Below, piece after piece: positions 3,584 to 11,860 of a stretch of DNA of 36,349 nucleotides (the first letter of the stretch is position 1; every line of letters starts with the position of its first letter). Under the pieces are notes generated by a model. It searched no databases. It was not told the DNA's origin and saw nothing but the letters and a program-made list of their open reading frames with translations. Source of the stretch: an uncultured Colwellia sp. Lineage in GTDB: Bacteria > Pseudomonadota > Gammaproteobacteria > Enterobacterales > Alteromonadaceae. A program made the position numbers and the translations under genes. Location of the stretch: contig CAJXPG010000023.1 of NCBI GenBank assembly GCA_913057925.1, positions 1-36,349 on the forward strand, given 5' to 3'.

Positions 3584-4725
<1,142 letters not shown>

Positions 4726-4741
4726 TTAGTCTTTTGCTACG

Positions 4742-5854
4742 TTAATAGCTTGATAGTAGTTGCTGTAATTTTGCTATTTCTTGTTCACTACCAATACTAA
4801 TGCGTAAGCAGTTTTCCAACTGTAGTTGTTTTGACTGATCCCTAATCAAAATATTATTGCTGACAAGTAAATCAAACAGCTGGTTTTTATCTTGTTCACT
4901 GTGACAGCGAAATAAAACAAAGTTAGCGTCGCTGGCGAATACTTGTTTACACCAACCTTGCTCTGTTAACCACAATGCCAATTGACCTCGAAGCTTGTTA
5001 CTTGATTGTACCTGTTCAAGCATTTTATTTAAGTCACTTGTTAAGGCGTTGCTGGCAAGCTCGGCAACAGGGGCAGAAATAGGATATGGCGCAATTACTT
5101 TGCTTAATAGTGTGATGACATCTTTATTGGCTAAGGTAAATCCGCAGCGCAATCCCGCTAAAGCAAATGCTTTTGATAAGGTTCTAAGCACAATAACATT
5201 ATCAAATTCATTGAGTAATTTTGCCGATGAATCCTCAGGTGAAAATTCAATATAAGCTTCATCAACCACGACCATGGCACTGTCTTTAAATAGCTCAATC
5301 GCTTCGATAATCTGTGCTTGTGGTAATAGATTACCCGTCGGATTACCTGGTGAGCATAAAAATACTACTTTTACTTTACCAACTTGCTGTTTTAATCCTG
5401 CTAAATCTAGGGTTAAGTCGGCTGAAATAAGCGGTACTTTGACAATACCTGCGCCGTGATTTTCAGCACTAATGGCGTACATGCCATACGTTGGAGGACA
5501 AATTAAAATGCTATCTTGATAGGCTTTACAAAAGCTACGGATGATTAGCTCAATGCCTTCATCTGCGCCTCTGGTTGCCAATAACTGTTCTTTTGCTAAA
5601 CCGCAGTATTCGCTATATGCATCGAGTAAGTTACTCGGTTGAAAGTCAGGGTAACGATTTAAGTTTTCGGCTGACAGCTGATATTCACCATTACCTGGGG
5701 CTTCATTAGCATTTAACCAGATTTTCTCTTCAGTTGAGTTGGCACTTGAAAATAACCGCCTTGCCGATTGATAAGGCACCATATCAATTAACTCTTCTCG
5801 CGCTAATTGCTCAGCGGTTGTTAACGAAGCTTTTGTTGACTCGAGGTTAGCCAT
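4742..5854 (-). CDS. hisC: Histidinol-phosphate aminotransferase HisC
   Basis: HisC is a PLP enzyme of fold type I that transfers an amino group from glutamate to imidazole acetol phosphate. The Schiff-base lysine is K228 in TLSKAFALAGLR, and the PLP-pairing Asp is D198 in VVDEAYIEF; NPTGN (171-175) binds the cofactor. The 370 residues include a slightly long N-terminus (MANLESTKASLTTAEQLA) before the conserved VPYQSAR. The start lies two bases after the hisD stop, so it is in the same operon. Confidence 0.97.
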   Translation of the reverse strand: MANLESTKASLTTAEQLAREELIDMVPYQSARRLFSSANSTEEKIWLNANEAPGNGEYQLSAENLNRYPDFQPSNLLDAYSEYCGLAKEQLLATRGADEGIELIIRSFCKAYQDSILICPPTYGMYAISAENHGAGIVKVPLISADLTLDLAGLKQQVGKVKVVFLCSPGNPTGNLLPQAQIIEAIELFKDSAMVVVDEAYIEFSPEDSSAKLLNEFDNVIVLRTLSKAFALAGLRCGFTLANKDVITLLSKVIAPYPISAPVAELASNALTSDLNKMLEQVQSSNKLRGQLALWLTEQGWCKQVFASDANFVLFRCHSEQDKNQLFDLLVSNNILIRDQSKQLQLENCLRISIGSEQEIAKLQQLLSSY

Positions 5855-5856
5855 AA

Positions 5857-7161
5857 TTAAACGCCTTCTTCTAAACGAATAGTTACCGCACGTTGGTGAC
5901 CATCTAAACCTTCGGCATCGGTTAATTCAATAATACACTCAGATAAACTTGTTAGGCCCGCTTTCGTGATTTCTTGAACAGTATAGCGGCGAGAAAAATC
6001 AGCGAGTGACAAACTCGAGATAACTTTTGAATAACCGTAGGTTGGTAATACGTGGTTGGTACCGCTGGCGTAATCACCGGCAGATTCTGGGGTAAAAGCA
6101 CCAACAAAAATAGAACCAGCATTGCGTAAATTATTCAGCAATGATTGTGCATCTTGGGTTTGAATAATTAAGTGCTCTGGTCCGTATAAGTTTGATACCT
6201 CAACCGCTTGGGTTAAGTCTTTCGTTAAAATTAAACGTGACTGTGTTAATGCTTGTTCAGCAATTTTACGTCGTGATAATAATGCCAGTTGCTTTTCTAG
6301 TTCAGCTGATACCTTGTTAATTAGTGATTCACTGTCAGTAAGCAAGATTACTTGGCTATCAGCGCCGTGTTCCGCTTGTGATAACAAATCAGCGGCAATA
6401 AATGCTGGGTTGGCTTGCTCATCACCAATAACTAATACTTCTGAAGGACCTGCCGGCATATCAATGGCAAAACCTGCAACTTGTTGTGATAGCTGAGTCT
6501 TGGCCTCAGTGACATATTTATTACCAGGGCCAAATACTTTATTCACCGCTTTTATGGTTTGTGTGCCGTAAGCTAACGCAGCAATGGCTTGTGCACCGCC
6601 TACTGTGTAAATTTCAGAAATACCACAAAGATCGGCAGCGACTAATATCTCATTGGCTAGTTGACCATTTTTATCTGGAGGACAAACCAATACCGTACGC
6701 TGACAACCAGCAAGTTTTGCTGGCACACCTAGCATCAATACCGTTGATGGTAATGGCGCAGAGCCTGCAGGAATATATAAACCAACACTCTCAATGGATT
6801 CAGTCTTTAACGTACACTTTACCCCAGGCGTTGTTTCAACAGTGATATCACTGGCTTTTTGCGCACTGTGAAAGGCATAAATTTGATTATAAGCTGTTTC
6901 AATGGCTTTTAATCGTTTAGCCGTTAGCGCGAGTTTAGCCTGAGCTACCTGCTCTTGACTTACTGCCAATGTACTTAAGGCGATACCATCAAACTGCTCT
7001 GTTAAGGCAACAATAGCTTTATCACCTTGGCTTTTCACTTGCGCTAAAATATTGGCAACTTGCGTTGATAATAAAGCGCTATCCGCAATGGCTGGACGTG
7101 CAAGAGCACATTTTTGTTGTTGCTCTGAAAGCGTTTGCCAATTGATTAGTTGGTTAATCAT
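5857..7161 (-). CDS. hisD: Histidinol dehydrogenase HisD
   Basis: HisD oxidises L-histidinol to L-histidine in two NAD-dependent steps using a bound zinc. The 434-residue protein has the family signatures LYIPAGSAPLPST, GPGNKYVTEAK, IDMPAGPSE and, near the end, ASGTNHVLPTYG. The start ATG is followed by INQLINWQTLSEQQQ, a normal N-terminus. It sits 154 bases after hisG, an unusually wide gap for this operon; that gap holds a small CTGAC/GTCAG hairpin near 7246-7263 but no gene. Confidence 0.97.
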   Translation of the reverse strand: MINQLINWQTLSEQQQKCALARPAIADSALLSTQVANILAQVKSQGDKAIVALTEQFDGIALSTLAVSQEQVAQAKLALTAKRLKAIETAYNQIYAFHSAQKASDITVETTPGVKCTLKTESIESVGLYIPAGSAPLPSTVLMLGVPAKLAGCQRTVLVCPPDKNGQLANEILVAADLCGISEIYTVGGAQAIAALAYGTQTIKAVNKVFGPGNKYVTEAKTQLSQQVAGFAIDMPAGPSEVLVIGDEQANPAFIAADLLSQAEHGADSQVILLTDSESLINKVSAELEKQLALLSRRKIAEQALTQSRLILTKDLTQAVEVSNLYGPEHLIIQTQDAQSLLNNLRNAGSIFVGAFTPESAGDYASGTNHVLPTYGYSKVISSLSLADFSRRYTVQEITKAGLTSLSECIIELTDAEGLDGHQRAVTIRLEEGV

Positions 7162-8218: not shown

Positions 8219-8291
8219 AGTGTAATTTCCTGTCTTAGTAATGCTTAAAATTCGTCATGTATATACAATTTCTAGTGCGCTAAAATGCGAA

Positions 8292-8327
8292 AAACCCCCG
8301 AGAGAGTAAAGACTCTTTCGGGGGTTT
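8292..8327 (-). terminator. his attenuator terminator hairpin
   Basis: A GC-rich inverted repeat (8292-8307 with 8312-8327, one mismatch) has CCCCC/GGGGG at its base and is followed on the minus strand by TTTTT. It lies between the leader peptide and hisG, 74 bases before the hisG start, exactly where a his attenuator is expected. Confidence 0.9.
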
Positions 8328-8366
8328 AGTAATGTCATTTTCTTATTAGAAATGTTTACTGCTGTC

Positions 8367-8392
8367 CACTGAAAGGCCTTTGCCCTTCAGTG
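8367..8392 (-). promoter_or_regulatory. Leader RNA hairpin, candidate pause/antiterminator stem
   Basis: The arms CACTGAAAGG (8367-8376) and CCCTTCAGTG (8383-8392) pair almost perfectly just after the hisL stop. In his leaders such a stem mediates ribosome-coupled switching with the terminator; which alternative pairings form here is inference. Confidence 0.55.
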
Positions 8393-8416
8393 TTTTTGCT
8401 ACTAACGCTGAATGGG

Positions 8417-8461
8417 CTAAATGTTGTGATGGTGATGTCGGCGATTCAGGTTAATAGTCAT
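8417..8461 (-). CDS. hisL: his operon leader peptide (four consecutive His codons)
   Basis: On the minus strand an ATG at 8461 opens a 14-codon frame, MTINLNRRHHHHNI, ended by TAG at 8417. Four consecutive histidine codons (CAT CAC CAT CAC) sit just before the hairpins. A purine-rich stretch (AAAGAGAAA) precedes the start. The arrangement of short frame, His run, hairpin and U-tailed terminator before hisG is the classical transcription attenuator: scarcity of charged tRNA-His stalls the ribosome and prevents terminator formation. Enterobacterial leaders carry seven His codons, so the four here suggest a milder sensor. Confidence 0.92.
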   Translation of the reverse strand: MTINLNRRHHHHNI

Positions 8462-8655
8462 GGTTAATTTCTCTTTATAATCTTCAATTATCAGCAAATT
8501 TGCTGTGTTTTTAATGATGTTGTAAAATTAACTTAACAATCATTAAAAGCTAATTTATTTAACTGTTATTTACACTACTGGTTAATTAAGTTAGCTGCAA
8601 GTAATAAATAAGTTTTTTTTATTACTATTTGCTATATAGAACATTATTAAAGTTA

Positions 8656-9507
8656 TTACTCTATATGTTCTCTGTTTTTAAACTGGGCAATTCTTAGCGC
8701 CTCTAATTTTGCGTAAAGGTGCTCAGTGAAGAAGCCATGCATTAAAAAACGTTGCCCAAGGTTCCATGGACCAACTAAATATTGTGGATACTTGTTATAG
8801 GCATACTCGGTAAGCGTTCTATCATCTATAATTTCGCCAATTCTAATAGCGATAGATTGATCTAAGTTAAAGCCGTTGATAGCGTCACGGTATTCATCTT
8901 TTGTAAGTAAAAAGCAAAATAGACACATGAATAATGCATGAGATGTTTCAAAATCTAATATTTGTGATGCTTTCTTTTCTATGATGAAGTCTTCCATATT
9001 GATGGATTGCCAACTATTCCAGTTGTATTCATCGCCTTTCTCTACTTGTTTTTTGGGGCTAAAATCACCTAGCTGAATAAAACATTCAAATAACTCTTCG
9101 TCGTGATTTACAAAAGTATCAGTTAACATATCACTAATTTTCTTAGGGTATAAATTAACCCTATGTTGACAGTCTGAGTTTTCGGCCAAAAAATTAAGAA
9201 TGTTAGATTCAGTCGCAAAATGACGCAAAATAAGTAGATTAGCCTCAGGGGATACAAGGTGACGACAAAACCAACAAATAGTTTTTTGTAAAAAACTATG
9301 TGCACTAAATTGCGGAAGAGGCAAACGCTTAATAAACCAAACGATGTGCAGTAAGATAGCAAAGAAAAACTGTAAAGTAGGCCTCAATACCCATCGAAAA
9401 CTATTCTCAAGATCTTTCAGCCATAATTCAGTGGCTTCTTTTTCAATAGGAAGAGAATTATCTTTGCTAATTGCCTGTAAATAAGGACTGCGAGTATTTT
9501 TAGTCAT
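8656..9507 (-). CDS. Unrecognised protein, last gene of the KAS III/diiron oxidase operon
   Basis: I do not recognise this family. I chose the ATG at 9507 over one at 9519 because it overlaps the previous stop in ATGACTAA and has GAGG six bases upstream; this gives 283 residues. A hydrophobic segment with FFFAILLHIVWFI near residues 46-59 may anchor or embed it. A striking conserved-looking region follows: FCRHLVSPEANLLILRHFATES, then charged and aromatic helical sequence, and a C-terminal YPQYLVGPWNLGQRFLMHGFF. His and Glu are frequent but no classical catalytic motif is visible. Tight coupling to the diiron-type oxidase points to a shared pathway, perhaps as a membrane-associated partner. 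Confidence 0.85.
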   Translation of the reverse strand: MTKNTRSPYLQAISKDNSLPIEKEATELWLKDLENSFRWVLRPTLQFFFAILLHIVWFIKRLPLPQFSAHSFLQKTICWFCRHLVSPEANLLILRHFATESNILNFLAENSDCQHRVNLYPKKISDMLTDTFVNHDEELFECFIQLGDFSPKKQVEKGDEYNWNSWQSINMEDFIIEKKASQILDFETSHALFMCLFCFLLTKDEYRDAINGFNLDQSIAIRIGEIIDDRTLTEYAYNKYPQYLVGPWNLGQRFLMHGFFTEHLYAKLEALRIAQFKNREHIE

Positions 9508-10183
9508 TATCGACCTCATCTAATTGCATTTTATATAATTTTGCCACGACTTTAGCGGTACGAATAATATCCTCTACATTCTGCTGTGAGTCTGCAACCC
9601 GATCTATTAGCTGATAAAGCTCTTTCATATGGTTTTCATCATTTTCAGCATGGTAATCCATAAATGTTGTAACGCTTTGCTTAAAAGTAAATTGGTCATT
9701 GATTTGTTTAGACCATTTGACAGCCATCTTGTTACCTAGCCCTTCAATAATCCACATAGCGCCAATTAAATCAATCGGGTTCGGTTGGCTTGCTCTATAC
9801 ATTAGAAACCCATGCAATGCTTCAGTGCCTATATTTTTTGGCGCTGATTGTATTTGCTCCAATTGTCCTCCTGCAGCAACATAGTCAGCTTCTAATAATA
9901 AATAGTCACGATGTTCTTCTGTGGCATGACTGATGACAGTTGATCTTACATCAGAGTAATGTCGATCAAAACTTGAGGCGCACCTGCTAATCCAACGTGA
10001 GCCTTCGATAACTTGCTGGCGCAAATTTAGTAGCAACTCTTGATAGTCTTCGAGGCTCAAACGGCCTTGTTCTAAGCGTTGAATAATTGAAACTTTATTT
10101 AAAGATAAATCAAAGTCTAACCATACTGTTAATAAAGACTGTAAACAGCTTTGTCCAAGTTGTGATAATACTTTATTGTCCAT
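9500..10183 (-). CDS. Haem-oxygenase-fold diiron-type oxidase (HDO, TenA/UndA-like)
   Basis: The 227-residue, all-helical protein looks like the haem-oxygenase-like iron oxidase superfamily, whose members (for example UndA, SznF, BesC, CADD) use two irons and oxygen to oxidise fatty acids, amino acids or other small molecules. Candidate ligands are E60 (VIEGSRW), E90/H91 (ATEEHRDYL), E147 (WIIEGLG) and the C-terminal triad H178, D182, H185. The last has the HxxxDxxH spacing described for SznF-type enzymes. It starts six bases after the KAS III stop, with AGGA formed by the end of that gene. Fold call is good; the substrate is unknown, but the neighbour suggests an acyl chain. A PqqC/TenA role is possible but less likely. 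Confidence 0.78.
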   Translation of the reverse strand: MDNKVLSQLGQSCLQSLLTVWLDFDLSLNKVSIIQRLEQGRLSLEDYQELLLNLRQQVIEGSRWISRCASSFDRHYSDVRSTVISHATEEHRDYLLLEADYVAAGGQLEQIQSAPKNIGTEALHGFLMYRASQPNPIDLIGAMWIIEGLGNKMAVKWSKQINDQFTFKQSVTTFMDYHAENDENHMKELYQLIDRVADSQQNVEDIIRTAKVVAKLYKMQLDEVDND

Positions 10184-10189
10184 AATTAG

Positions 10190-11299
10190 TTATCCTACTA
10201 CTGTTAAATGCATATATGCACAGTTGAACCGACCGCTTTCAGGTACCATGCAAAAAATAGTTTCACCGGCTTTAAGATTGTGAGTGTTAATAAATTCATC
10301 CAGCATGATAAATATTGAGGCACAACCAGTGTTTCCCCGTTGATATAAATTGGTGTACCATTTTTCTTCTGAAATAGCTGCGCCAGCTGTTTCAAGCATG
10401 TCGAATATTTTACTTTTAAAGTATTTTGAAGAAAAATGACATAACACGTGATCTATTTTATTGGGCGTAACATGCTCTTGAGCAATTAGCTTTAAAAAAC
10501 CTTGCACACCGATAGAGACAATATTATCAAGTAATCTAACATCTTGGCGTAGCAGCAATGCACCAGCTTTTTCGGCCTCTGCATAAGAGCTGTAATCTTG
10601 CCAAGTTTTGTTACACTCACTCTTCGCTTGGCCAACAGACATACAAACCGGCAACGTGTTAGCGTGTGAAAAACTCTTTATCCAGTCAATTTTAAGGCTT
10701 TTGCCTGTAGCTCGTGGCTTATTTTCTAATAACAGGGCTCCAGCCCCATCTGATAACATCCAACGTAAAAACTCAGCGTTAAAATCTACCTCATTACTGT
10801 CTAATTGTTCATACCGAGAGTTTTTAAATAATCGAGAGGTTAATTCGCTAGCAATGACTAAAGCATTTTCGCTATCTTGACAGCGCACATTATTAAATGC
10901 GGTTTTAAGTGCCATCATGCTACTTGAGCAAATACCATGACTGGTGTGTAACTCCACTGCTGAAATATCTAATTCTGCTTGTACCATACTTCCAAAGCCG
11001 GGCAGTACCATATCACCTTGGCTTGTTGCACAACTTAGCATTTGAATCTTGCTTGGCGATAAATAGCTATTTTCAATACAGTTAATCCCTGCCTTTGCAG
11101 CCATCTGGCTATTTGATATTTCTGTTTGTTGTTTATCGTTGATGGCATAGTGACGATGTAAAATACCATTTGACTTTAATATCTTGTTTTTTAGGCGGCT
11201 TTTTTTTCCATAAATTAGCCCTAACACATTTTCAATCTCATCATTGTTAATAGCTTTACCCGGTAAGTAATGTCCTGTGCTATTGATATAAACGTCCAT
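10190..11299 (-). CDS. 3-oxoacyl-ACP synthase III-like (FabH/OleA superfamily) enzyme
   Basis: This 369-residue thiolase-fold enzyme should form a carbon-carbon (or acyl-transfer) bond from an acyl-CoA or acyl-ACP. The catalytic triad is intact: C124 in HGICSSSMMA, H288 in CHFSSKYF and N323 in QRGNTGCAS. The N-terminus INSTGHYLPGKAINNDEI is typical of KAS III. It is longer than housekeeping FabH (about 317 residues) and lies outside a fab cluster, so it is probably a specialised homologue. The ATG directly follows the stop of the membrane protein upstream with no gap. Its closest role (FabH-like priming, OleA-like condensation or acyl transfer) cannot be settled from sequence alone. Confidence 0.88.
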   Translation of the reverse strand: MDVYINSTGHYLPGKAINNDEIENVLGLIYGKKSRLKNKILKSNGILHRHYAINDKQQTEISNSQMAAKAGINCIENSYLSPSKIQMLSCATSQGDMVLPGFGSMVQAELDISAVELHTSHGICSSSMMALKTAFNNVRCQDSENALVIASELTSRLFKNSRYEQLDSNEVDFNAEFLRWMLSDGAGALLLENKPRATGKSLKIDWIKSFSHANTLPVCMSVGQAKSECNKTWQDYSSYAEAEKAGALLLRQDVRLLDNIVSIGVQGFLKLIAQEHVTPNKIDHVLCHFSSKYFKSKIFDMLETAGAAISEEKWYTNLYQRGNTGCASIFIMLDEFINTHNLKAGETIFCMVPESGRFNCAYMHLTVVG

Positions 11300-11860
11300 T
11301 TAATTTCCTTTATTTAAATATGCTTTAAAGCAACGTAAGTTCTCTTCTATGTAGGGAAATACACATACGATAGCCATAAAAACCAAATACATGGGTAAAA
11401 ATGATGATGAACCATGAGGTTCTTCAATAAGCACTAAACTCATACTTCCAGCCCAATCAAGTGTGAGTAGTTTTTGGAATACACTCCAATTAATGATAAT
11501 AATTGAGATAAGCATGTATAAAGGTAACGAGCCCAAGTAAGTGTGAGCATGCATTTCCCATATGGAGATTTCTCGTTTGGGTGAGGCATACCTAACATCC
11601 CAATGTGCAACTATTTCGTGTGAAATCCATGTGATTATACAAATGAGCAGGATCAGCACATTGACCTGATAGAGTAGGCAAAGAATTATTGGGATCCCCA
11701 TTTGTACTCCCATTAAAGAGTGCATGAGTGATTCTTTTATGCCCGAAGTGTTTTCAATGTTAGTTGCTCGATGACAGCACCAATCGACAAATCCTGCAAC
11801 TCCCCACAGAGGAAGAAAAACATATAACATTGCATTAATGAGTAAGGTAGAGGTATCCAC
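11300..11860 (-). CDS. Small integral membrane protein with His/Asp/Glu metal-type motifs
   Basis: This 186-residue protein has about four to five membrane segments (roughly 8-25, 50-80, 110-127, 154-171). Between them lie DWCCHR (D26, H30), ESLMH (E43, H47), SHEIVAHWD (H81, E82, H86, D88) and EMHAH (E102, H104, H106). Such clustered His/acid residues at membrane borders recall integral-membrane diiron hydroxylases and desaturases, but the spacing does not fit the standard three histidine boxes I know. The start is GTG at 11860, preceded by AGGA. It heads a four-gene operon with a KAS III enzyme, so oxidation of a lipid or acyl product is a reasonable inference, not a demonstrated function. 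Confidence 0.8.
   Translation of the reverse strand: MDTSTLLINAMLYVFLPLWGVAGFVDWCCHRATNIENTSGIKESLMHSLMGVQMGIPIILCLLYQVNVLILLICIITWISHEIVAHWDVRYASPKREISIWEMHAHTYLGSLPLYMLISIIIINWSVFQKLLTLDWAGSMSLVLIEEPHGSSSFLPMYLVFMAIVCVFPYIEENLRCFKAYLNKGN

Follow-up and report, generated by a model that had tools for sequence, protein, structure and literature searches.

Conserved association of a KAS III-type ketosynthase, a haem-oxygenase-like oxidase, a membrane protein and a DUF6999 protein in an uncultured Colwellia sp. and its relatives

Do four closely packed genes on the minus strand of an uncultured Colwellia sp. form one functional unit, and what could such a unit make? The genes lie in contig CAJXPG010000023.1 (assembly GCA_913057925.1), which was analyzed over positions 1 to 36,349, i.e., the window. 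They encode a membrane protein (M), a ketosynthase of the beta-ketoacyl-acyl carrier protein (ACP) synthase III (KAS III) type (K), a haem-oxygenase-like, probable dimetal oxidase (H), and a protein of the DUF6999 family (D). M-K-H-D is a single inherited unit. With moderate confidence, it is considered a biosynthetic operon that has spread horizontally and makes an oxidised small molecule or lipid derived from fatty acids.

Conservation and distribution of the four-gene unit

Bacterial and archaeal genomes were scanned with an alignment of H. At least 591 pattern matches and at least 540 relatives were obtained, and the best 80 were kept; the counts over 80 loci thus describe the nearer part of the H family. 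By tblastn, M, K, H, and D were all present in 76 of the 80 loci, and the four incomplete loci (L066, L076, L080, and L081) were located at contig ends. The order M-K-H-D on one strand was retained in 75 loci, and D was inverted in L077. Median gaps were -4 for M/K (77 loci), 1 for K/H (78 loci), and -11 for H/D (73 loci). With the order retained in 75/80 loci, chance can hardly account for the arrangement. Pairwise distances were also correlated among M, K, H, and D, with r of 0.85-0.94 overall and 0.76-0.94 within the gammaproteobacterial set (68/80 loci).

By record titles, 55 of the 80 loci were gammaproteobacterial, including one titled only Proteobacteria (L027), 22 were from Poseidoniales or Euryarchaeota, two from Myxococcota, and one was cyanobacterial. 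The archaeal assignment was also made by PolD, whose gene cluster was found in 14 loci, every one archaeal; the large subunit (DNA polymerase II) was confirmed in L069 with 1079.7 bits against a cut-off of 702.15. Mean identities between the archaeal and gammaproteobacterial sets (17 vs 48 loci) were 60% for K, 57% for H, 47% for M, and 43% for D. Transfer of the unit between domains is the simplest reading, and support was poor for the deeper part of the K tree. The genes hisG and dinG were found beside the unit in only three of 83 loci (L009, L019, and L021, the first and last being one contig), so the unit is placed elsewhere in other lineages. The earlier note on this DNA, made from the sequence alone, had proposed a search for synteny across Alteromonadales. 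The synteny is conserved, but its spread is much wider than that order.

Searches seeded with DUF6999 gave a second sample. Carriers were found in 5/295 genomes of the order, 7/369 of the class, and 5/299 of the phylum, with the own genome in each count, and the combined searches gave 14 different carrier genomes. K and H adjoined D in 11 of them (G000, G194, G254, G173, G313, G371, G517, G594, G803, G827, and G849). The 14 carriers include the own genome as well as G194 and G594, whose contigs already appear among the 80 loci as L021 and L037; once these three were left out, K-H-D was present in 8 of 11 carriers. In the remaining carriers, G283 and G346 had decayed pieces of K and D, with a 17-residue match to H in G346, and G368 had D alone. 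The profile of M matched 3/369 genomes of the class, and the match in G566 was a distant relative in a different neighbourhood. Since K-H-D was found in the 11 D-seeded carriers and the M profile in three class genomes, the core consists of K-H-D, to which M is added in the window-type unit. Co-occurrence had been set beforehand as a check on the earlier note's pathway idea, and both samples, i.e., 76/80 loci for the four genes and 11/14 carriers for K-H-D, upheld it.

Some loci departed from intact reading frames. D was split in L034 and H ended early in L092, perhaps by assembly errors, and the D frame was open in L014, L024, L025, L031, and L037. Decayed K and D pieces were seen in L010 and L109 (two genomes), L010 being near a fatty-acid desaturase gene and a GH3-like gene, the latter name being a guess from sequence. 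In viral contigs, 39 pattern matches were obtained and none was a true relative.

In the window, the gap between M and K is 0 bases and that between K and H is 6 bases, and D overlaps H, as the earlier note had described together with the coordinates (Table 1). The overlap is 20 bases from the first ATG of D and 8 bases from the ATG at 9507. The latter is more likely the start, judging from a GAGG just upstream and its fit to the start of several relatives. Ribosome sites of the AGGA/AAGGA type were read by eye ahead of M, K, and H.

Table 1. Genes of the M-K-H-D unit in the window
Gene	Position	Strand	Description
M	11860-11300	minus	GTG start, 186 aa, membrane protein
K	11299-10190	minus	369 aa, KAS III-type ketosynthase
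H	10183-9500	minus	227 aa, probable dimetal oxidase of the haem-oxygenase-like type (Haem_oxygenas_2)
D	9519-8656	minus	DUF6999, 287 aa from first ATG; 283 aa if start is 9507

Ketosynthase K and oxidase H

K was over the Pfam cut-off for ACP_syn_III and ACP_syn_III_C, so its earlier naming as a KAS III enzyme held. The best NCBIfam models were StlD/DarB NF005293, with 398.7 bits against a cut-off of 450, and the DarB exception model, with 362.4 bits against 550, followed by a next-best model at 105.3 bits. The StlD structure 5gk0 was matched over the full length of K (E 2.5e-75). All 31 K rows and all 10 DarB rows have the catalytic residues C124, H288, and N323. Close to C124 and H288, H121 and C287 were fixed in 30 of 31 K rows, whereas DarB has Ala and Pro, so the reaction of K may differ from that of DarB. 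In two loci where K is fused to H, these positions were His and Cys (L105) and His and Ala (L106).

A search of 197 genomes of the order with NF005293 gave 561-612 bits for ten DarB proteins, 327-398 bits for three K proteins, and 58 bits for the next match. DarB is used here in a wider sense, i.e., one of the ten scored 532.9 against 550 on the stricter DarB model. In a K tree of 47 rows with no outgroup, a 99/97 branch set the 30 M-K-H-D rows apart from the rest, and the 10 DarB rows grouped with 97/87 support. A second tree took in two FabH proteins over the cut-off and the two other KAS III proteins that the own genome also encodes (PRK07515 and PRK09258 models). These four rows fell outside at 99/98 on very long branches, up to 10, and DarB stayed together at 99/99. 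With them, the M-K-H-D rows needed two changes, as DarB and the fused forms nested among them. The K type could be a clade or could be the stem from which the others arose, and the tree with added rows supports neither firmly. By these sequence comparisons, K lies with, yet outside, the StlD/DarB ring-forming ketosynthases, and it is outside FabH too.

The possibility that K is a housekeeping FabH with chance neighbours is practically negligible. One plasmid record annotates K as beta-ketoacyl-ACP synthase III; however, K reached only 83.7 of the 292.1 bits required by fabH TIGR00747, while FabH proteins of the order score 418-425 bits (controls L127, 424.5 bits, and L130, 418.5 bits), and the gene order is retained in 75 of 80 loci across two domains of life. 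Housekeeping FabH was ruled out by the score, the tree with FabH rows, and the synteny; the earlier note had named a grouping of K with FabH as a finding that would overturn its pathway idea.

StlD and DarB act in the stilbene pathway of Photorhabdus and in dialkylresorcinol and flexirubin pathways. They resemble K over the full length with Cys-His-Asn kept, and K differs from them by its score under the curated cut-off and its place outside the DarB branch. In the part of the study consulted, DarA was described as an aromatase and DarB as a cyclase (PMC3949708). The genes for DarA, a BtrH-like protein, and a 137-aa protein were found by 10/10 DarB genes of the order but by 0/80 M-K-H-D loci, and DarA had no match in the own genome, which is 93% complete. 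The DarA label is based on the position beside DarB, a DarH model hit two genes on, and PMC3949708, as Pfam and NCBIfam gave it no name. A canonical dialkylresorcinol cluster was therefore ruled out, since no DarA or other Dar neighbours were found.

A relative of K (40%) was also seen in a Streptomyces plasmid cluster (L099, 8712-18288) together with two acyl carrier proteins, FabF, FabG, P450, a flavin adenine dinucleotide (FAD) monooxygenase, and an SCP2 protein. This is perhaps another fatty-acid-type pathway.

K and H were one uninterrupted reading frame in L105, L106, L142, and L143. The same read-through was interrupted by 6 stops in L144, 12 in L108, and 22 in L007, and K ended in its own stop in 79/79 of those among the 80 loci that hold both genes. 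The natural fusion is strong evidence that K and H would catalyze consecutive steps on one substrate.

H belongs to Haem_oxygenas_2 (37.0 bits against a gathering cut-off of 28.9), consistent with the haem-oxygenase fold proposed before. In 31 aligned rows, E60, H86, E90, D93, E147, H178, D182, and H185 were invariant. Haem-oxygenase-like dimetal oxidases (HDOs) have a carboxylate in core helix 2 and H-x3-D-x2-H in core helix 3, and both, as E147 and H178-x3-D182-x2-H185, were found in H and in 8/8 other HDOs compared. The E-x2-H order of the first helix was not present in H, which has E90-x2-D93 with the invariant H86 upstream; the eight HDOs, taken from AMP-binding operons, and 3dde have His at 93, and the eight have Tyr at 86. 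The spacing in the first helix varies among other HDO subtypes. Because D93 and H86 replace His93 and Tyr86, we infer that the first-helix histidine ligand of H has moved by two turns. H is a probable dimetal oxidase using O2, as predicted from sequence.

About a dozen HDOs have been characterised, mostly acting on fatty or amino acids, according to the sections consulted of PMC13108848. UndA, CADD, SznF, BesC, AetD, and others are HDOs, and H falls in this superfamily by Haem_oxygenas_2 and has E147 and H178-x3-D182-x2-H185 in common with the eight HDOs compared; it differs by the first helix described above. It further differs by a KAS III enzyme beside it or fused to it, a partner that is not named in sections 4 and 11 of PMC13108848. 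The profile of H had 3dde as its sole PDB match up to E=1.

The earlier note had raised the alkene-forming oxidase UndA as a model. In a hydrocarbon pathway of this kind, K would supply the precursor, a long beta-keto acid or a ketone, which H would turn into an alkene by oxidative decarboxylation. H is in the Pfam family of haem-oxygenase-like iron oxidases, and desaturases travel with the unit. However, a PDB search with the H profile up to E=1 did not find UndA, the first helix has E90-x2-D93 and H86 instead of E-x2-H, and UndA is not known to need a ketosynthase. Such a pathway is hence regarded as quite unlikely. Of the fatty-acid-derived product proposed before, the fatty-acid link stood through the coupled desaturases and the hydroxylase described below, whereas the UndA-like 1-alkene found no specific support.

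A plasmid operon of Pseudoalteromonas, Vibrio, Pantoea, Variovorax, and others resembles the unit as a small operon with an oxidase of the same Pfam family, 21-24% alike to H. Its partners are an AMP-binding enzyme and a short-chain dehydrogenase/reductase (SDR), and in the stretches read no KAS III or DUF6999 was annotated beside it. This second uncharacterised oxidase operon was seen in L103, L104, and L147-L152. In L147, the oxidase lies inside one gene annotated AMP-binding and is probably fused; in L103 and L104, a gene annotated 'thermostable hemolysin' stands in front of the operon.

Coupled lipid genes and proteins M and D

In L105, L142, and L143, a fatty-acid hydroxylase gene and then a desaturase gene precede the K-H fusion. 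These were identified by Pfam in L105 and by tblastn in L142 and L143, and no match to either was found in L106 within its 20 kb. A desaturase gene was coupled to the unit, by overlap or a gap of at most 3 bases, in 17 of the 25 non-gammaproteobacterial loci. Two desaturase families were represented, one being the fusion-linked family; the start of the L077 desaturase was overextended by the open reading frame caller. In three of the eight such loci without a coupled desaturase (L083, L089, and L095), fewer than 600 bases follow D. The own genome encodes one desaturase over the Pfam cut-off, located elsewhere.

Directly after K-H-D, one protein with major facilitator superfamily (MFS), acyltransferase, and AMP-binding domains was found in G849, which is of the same phylum as the window genome but another class, with the gene in L144 at 3697-7098 (minus strand). 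This protein perhaps links the product to lipids. The coupled desaturases, the hydroxylase and desaturase before the fusions, and the MFS-acyltransferase-AMP-binding protein in G849 support a link to fatty acids.

These lipid genes also bear on the view that K is a KAS III enzyme transferring acyl or ester groups, in a cassette that remodels membrane lipids and makes no separate metabolite. A membrane protein M, the coupled membrane desaturases, and the fused MFS-acyltransferase-AMP-binding gene after D in L144 would suit it, but K retains the Cys-His-Asn condensing triad and lies with ring-forming condensing enzymes. Pure lipid remodelling is accordingly judged unlikely.

M had no Pfam or NCBIfam family over the cut-off. 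In its model (mean pLDDT, i.e., predicted local distance difference test, 94.8), helices were placed at residues 3-32, 40-63, 68-92, 100-123, 125-132, and 154-185, and five long helices were predicted. Fifteen residues (D26, C29, H30, E36, E43, H47, H81, E82, H86, D88, E102, H104, H106, E173, and C177) were identical in 29/29 rows including the window. The motif pointed out in the earlier note is therefore real as conservation, with metal binding as a prediction. The invariant residues are at the end of helix 1, the start of helix 2, the end of helix 3, and the start of helix 4, and the last helix carries E173 and C177; in the model, the invariant residues are probably mostly on one side of the membrane. 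The model had no PDB match at 0.001 by Foldseek (best E 0.51). An ordinary fatty-acid hydroxylase or desaturase was rejected for M, as no PF04116 or PF00487 was found in 29 members up to E=1 and no fold matched. Because the hydroxylase of the fused loci sits upstream of K like M, with the desaturase between, the analogy suggests a predicted role of M as a membrane lipid oxidase too.

A distant relative of M was seen in L136 (7733-8257, plus strand) beside an apparent alcohol dehydrogenase, read by eye. It retains the motifs D-x3-HR, ESxxH, and ExHxH, so M is part of a wider unnamed membrane family.

D matched DUF6999 (PF22523) with 297.3 bits against a gathering cut-off of 27. Its model (mean pLDDT 89.8) was all helical and had no significant PDB match by Foldseek (best E 2.3). 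H100, H139, D140, D189, D220, H261, and E266 were invariant in 34 aligned rows and are drawn from different helices or their edges, an arrangement that in the model resembles the active site of a helical bundle. The readings of D as a ferritin, an HDO, or a protein with an HD domain were rejected, since the 39 Foldseek rows, which included ferritins, PolF, and SznF and named no HD protein, were all insignificant. The pattern of H100, H139-D140, and D189/D220, which we took to be loosely HD-like, could not be supported. At the sensitivity used, M and D are orphans, i.e., without a relative of known function.

Proposed pathway and neighbouring features

In the proposed biosynthetic route, K would join two acyl thioesters from primary metabolism and would probably form a beta-keto or ring (cyclohexanedione-like) intermediate, as StlD and DarB do. 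Since none of the four genes encodes an ACP or ligase, acyl-coenzyme A or the housekeeping ACP would be the source. H would then use O2 to oxidise the K product. M and D would work on the same lipid at an earlier or later step, modifying it or delivering electrons or substrate, and in other lineages the membrane desaturases and the fatty-acid hydroxylase may stand in for or add to the M and D steps. The conservation, the K-H fusion, the family placements, the conserved residues, and the neighbours are observed; from them we infer the substrates, the formation of a ring, the binding of metal, the sequence of the steps, and the roles of M and D.

Several points weigh against this route. Neither M nor D has a relative of known function. 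Ring formation is uncertain, as K is under the StlD/DarB cut-off (398.7 of 450) and DarA is missing. No acyl carrier protein, thioesterase, or ligase is among the four proteins, the neighbours not having been screened for ACP or thioesterase, and neither desaturase family was found in the 55 gammaproteobacterial loci. The correlated distances of the four proteins are in part expected from shared species history.

A more specific form of the biosynthetic reading is offered tentatively. Here H, with its relocated first-helix histidine, would do the job of DarA, i.e., O2-dependent desaturation or aromatisation of a ring made by K. That would make the operon a route by which a dimetal oxidase leads to resorcinol- or cyclohexanedione-type lipids, common to marine bacteria and marine archaea, and M and D would be two new enzyme families. 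If K makes a ring, H, M, and D could also oxidise it stepwise to a redox-active quinone or ring-hydroxylated lipid. The chance of this is slim: K is related to DarB and three operon proteins have conserved His/carboxylate sets, but there is no direct evidence of a quinone and the aromatase DarA is absent.

The proposed biosynthetic operon has a meaning beyond this contig. The unit contains two proteins without a solved-structure match and an oxidase whose predicted metal ligands deviate from those in the relatives compared. It is easy to clone, and its expression could bring to light an unknown product, a KAS III reaction of a new kind, and two enzyme families not seen before. As the compact unit crossed between bacteria and marine archaea with its order kept, the product is likely useful in the sea. 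If the reading is true, fatty-acid-type chemistry is placed in archaea, whose membranes are isoprenoid. In the literature searched (open-licence PMC papers), no description of the M-K-H-D gene set and no mention of DUF6999 were found, in line with the earlier statement that no described pathway has exactly this gene set. K and H belong to known enzyme classes, and as far as searched neither the combination nor M and D have been described.

In the window, the unit is flanked by hisG and dinG, hisG being on the D side. Between D and hisG, a likely histidine-operon attenuator was observed at 8417-8461 (minus strand) and 8219-8480 (minus strand). Rfam had no match over its cut-off there. The leader peptide MTINLNRRHHHHNI has four consecutive His codons and is followed by a strong GC hairpin and a T run, and the fold z-score of the putative attenuator was -6.4.

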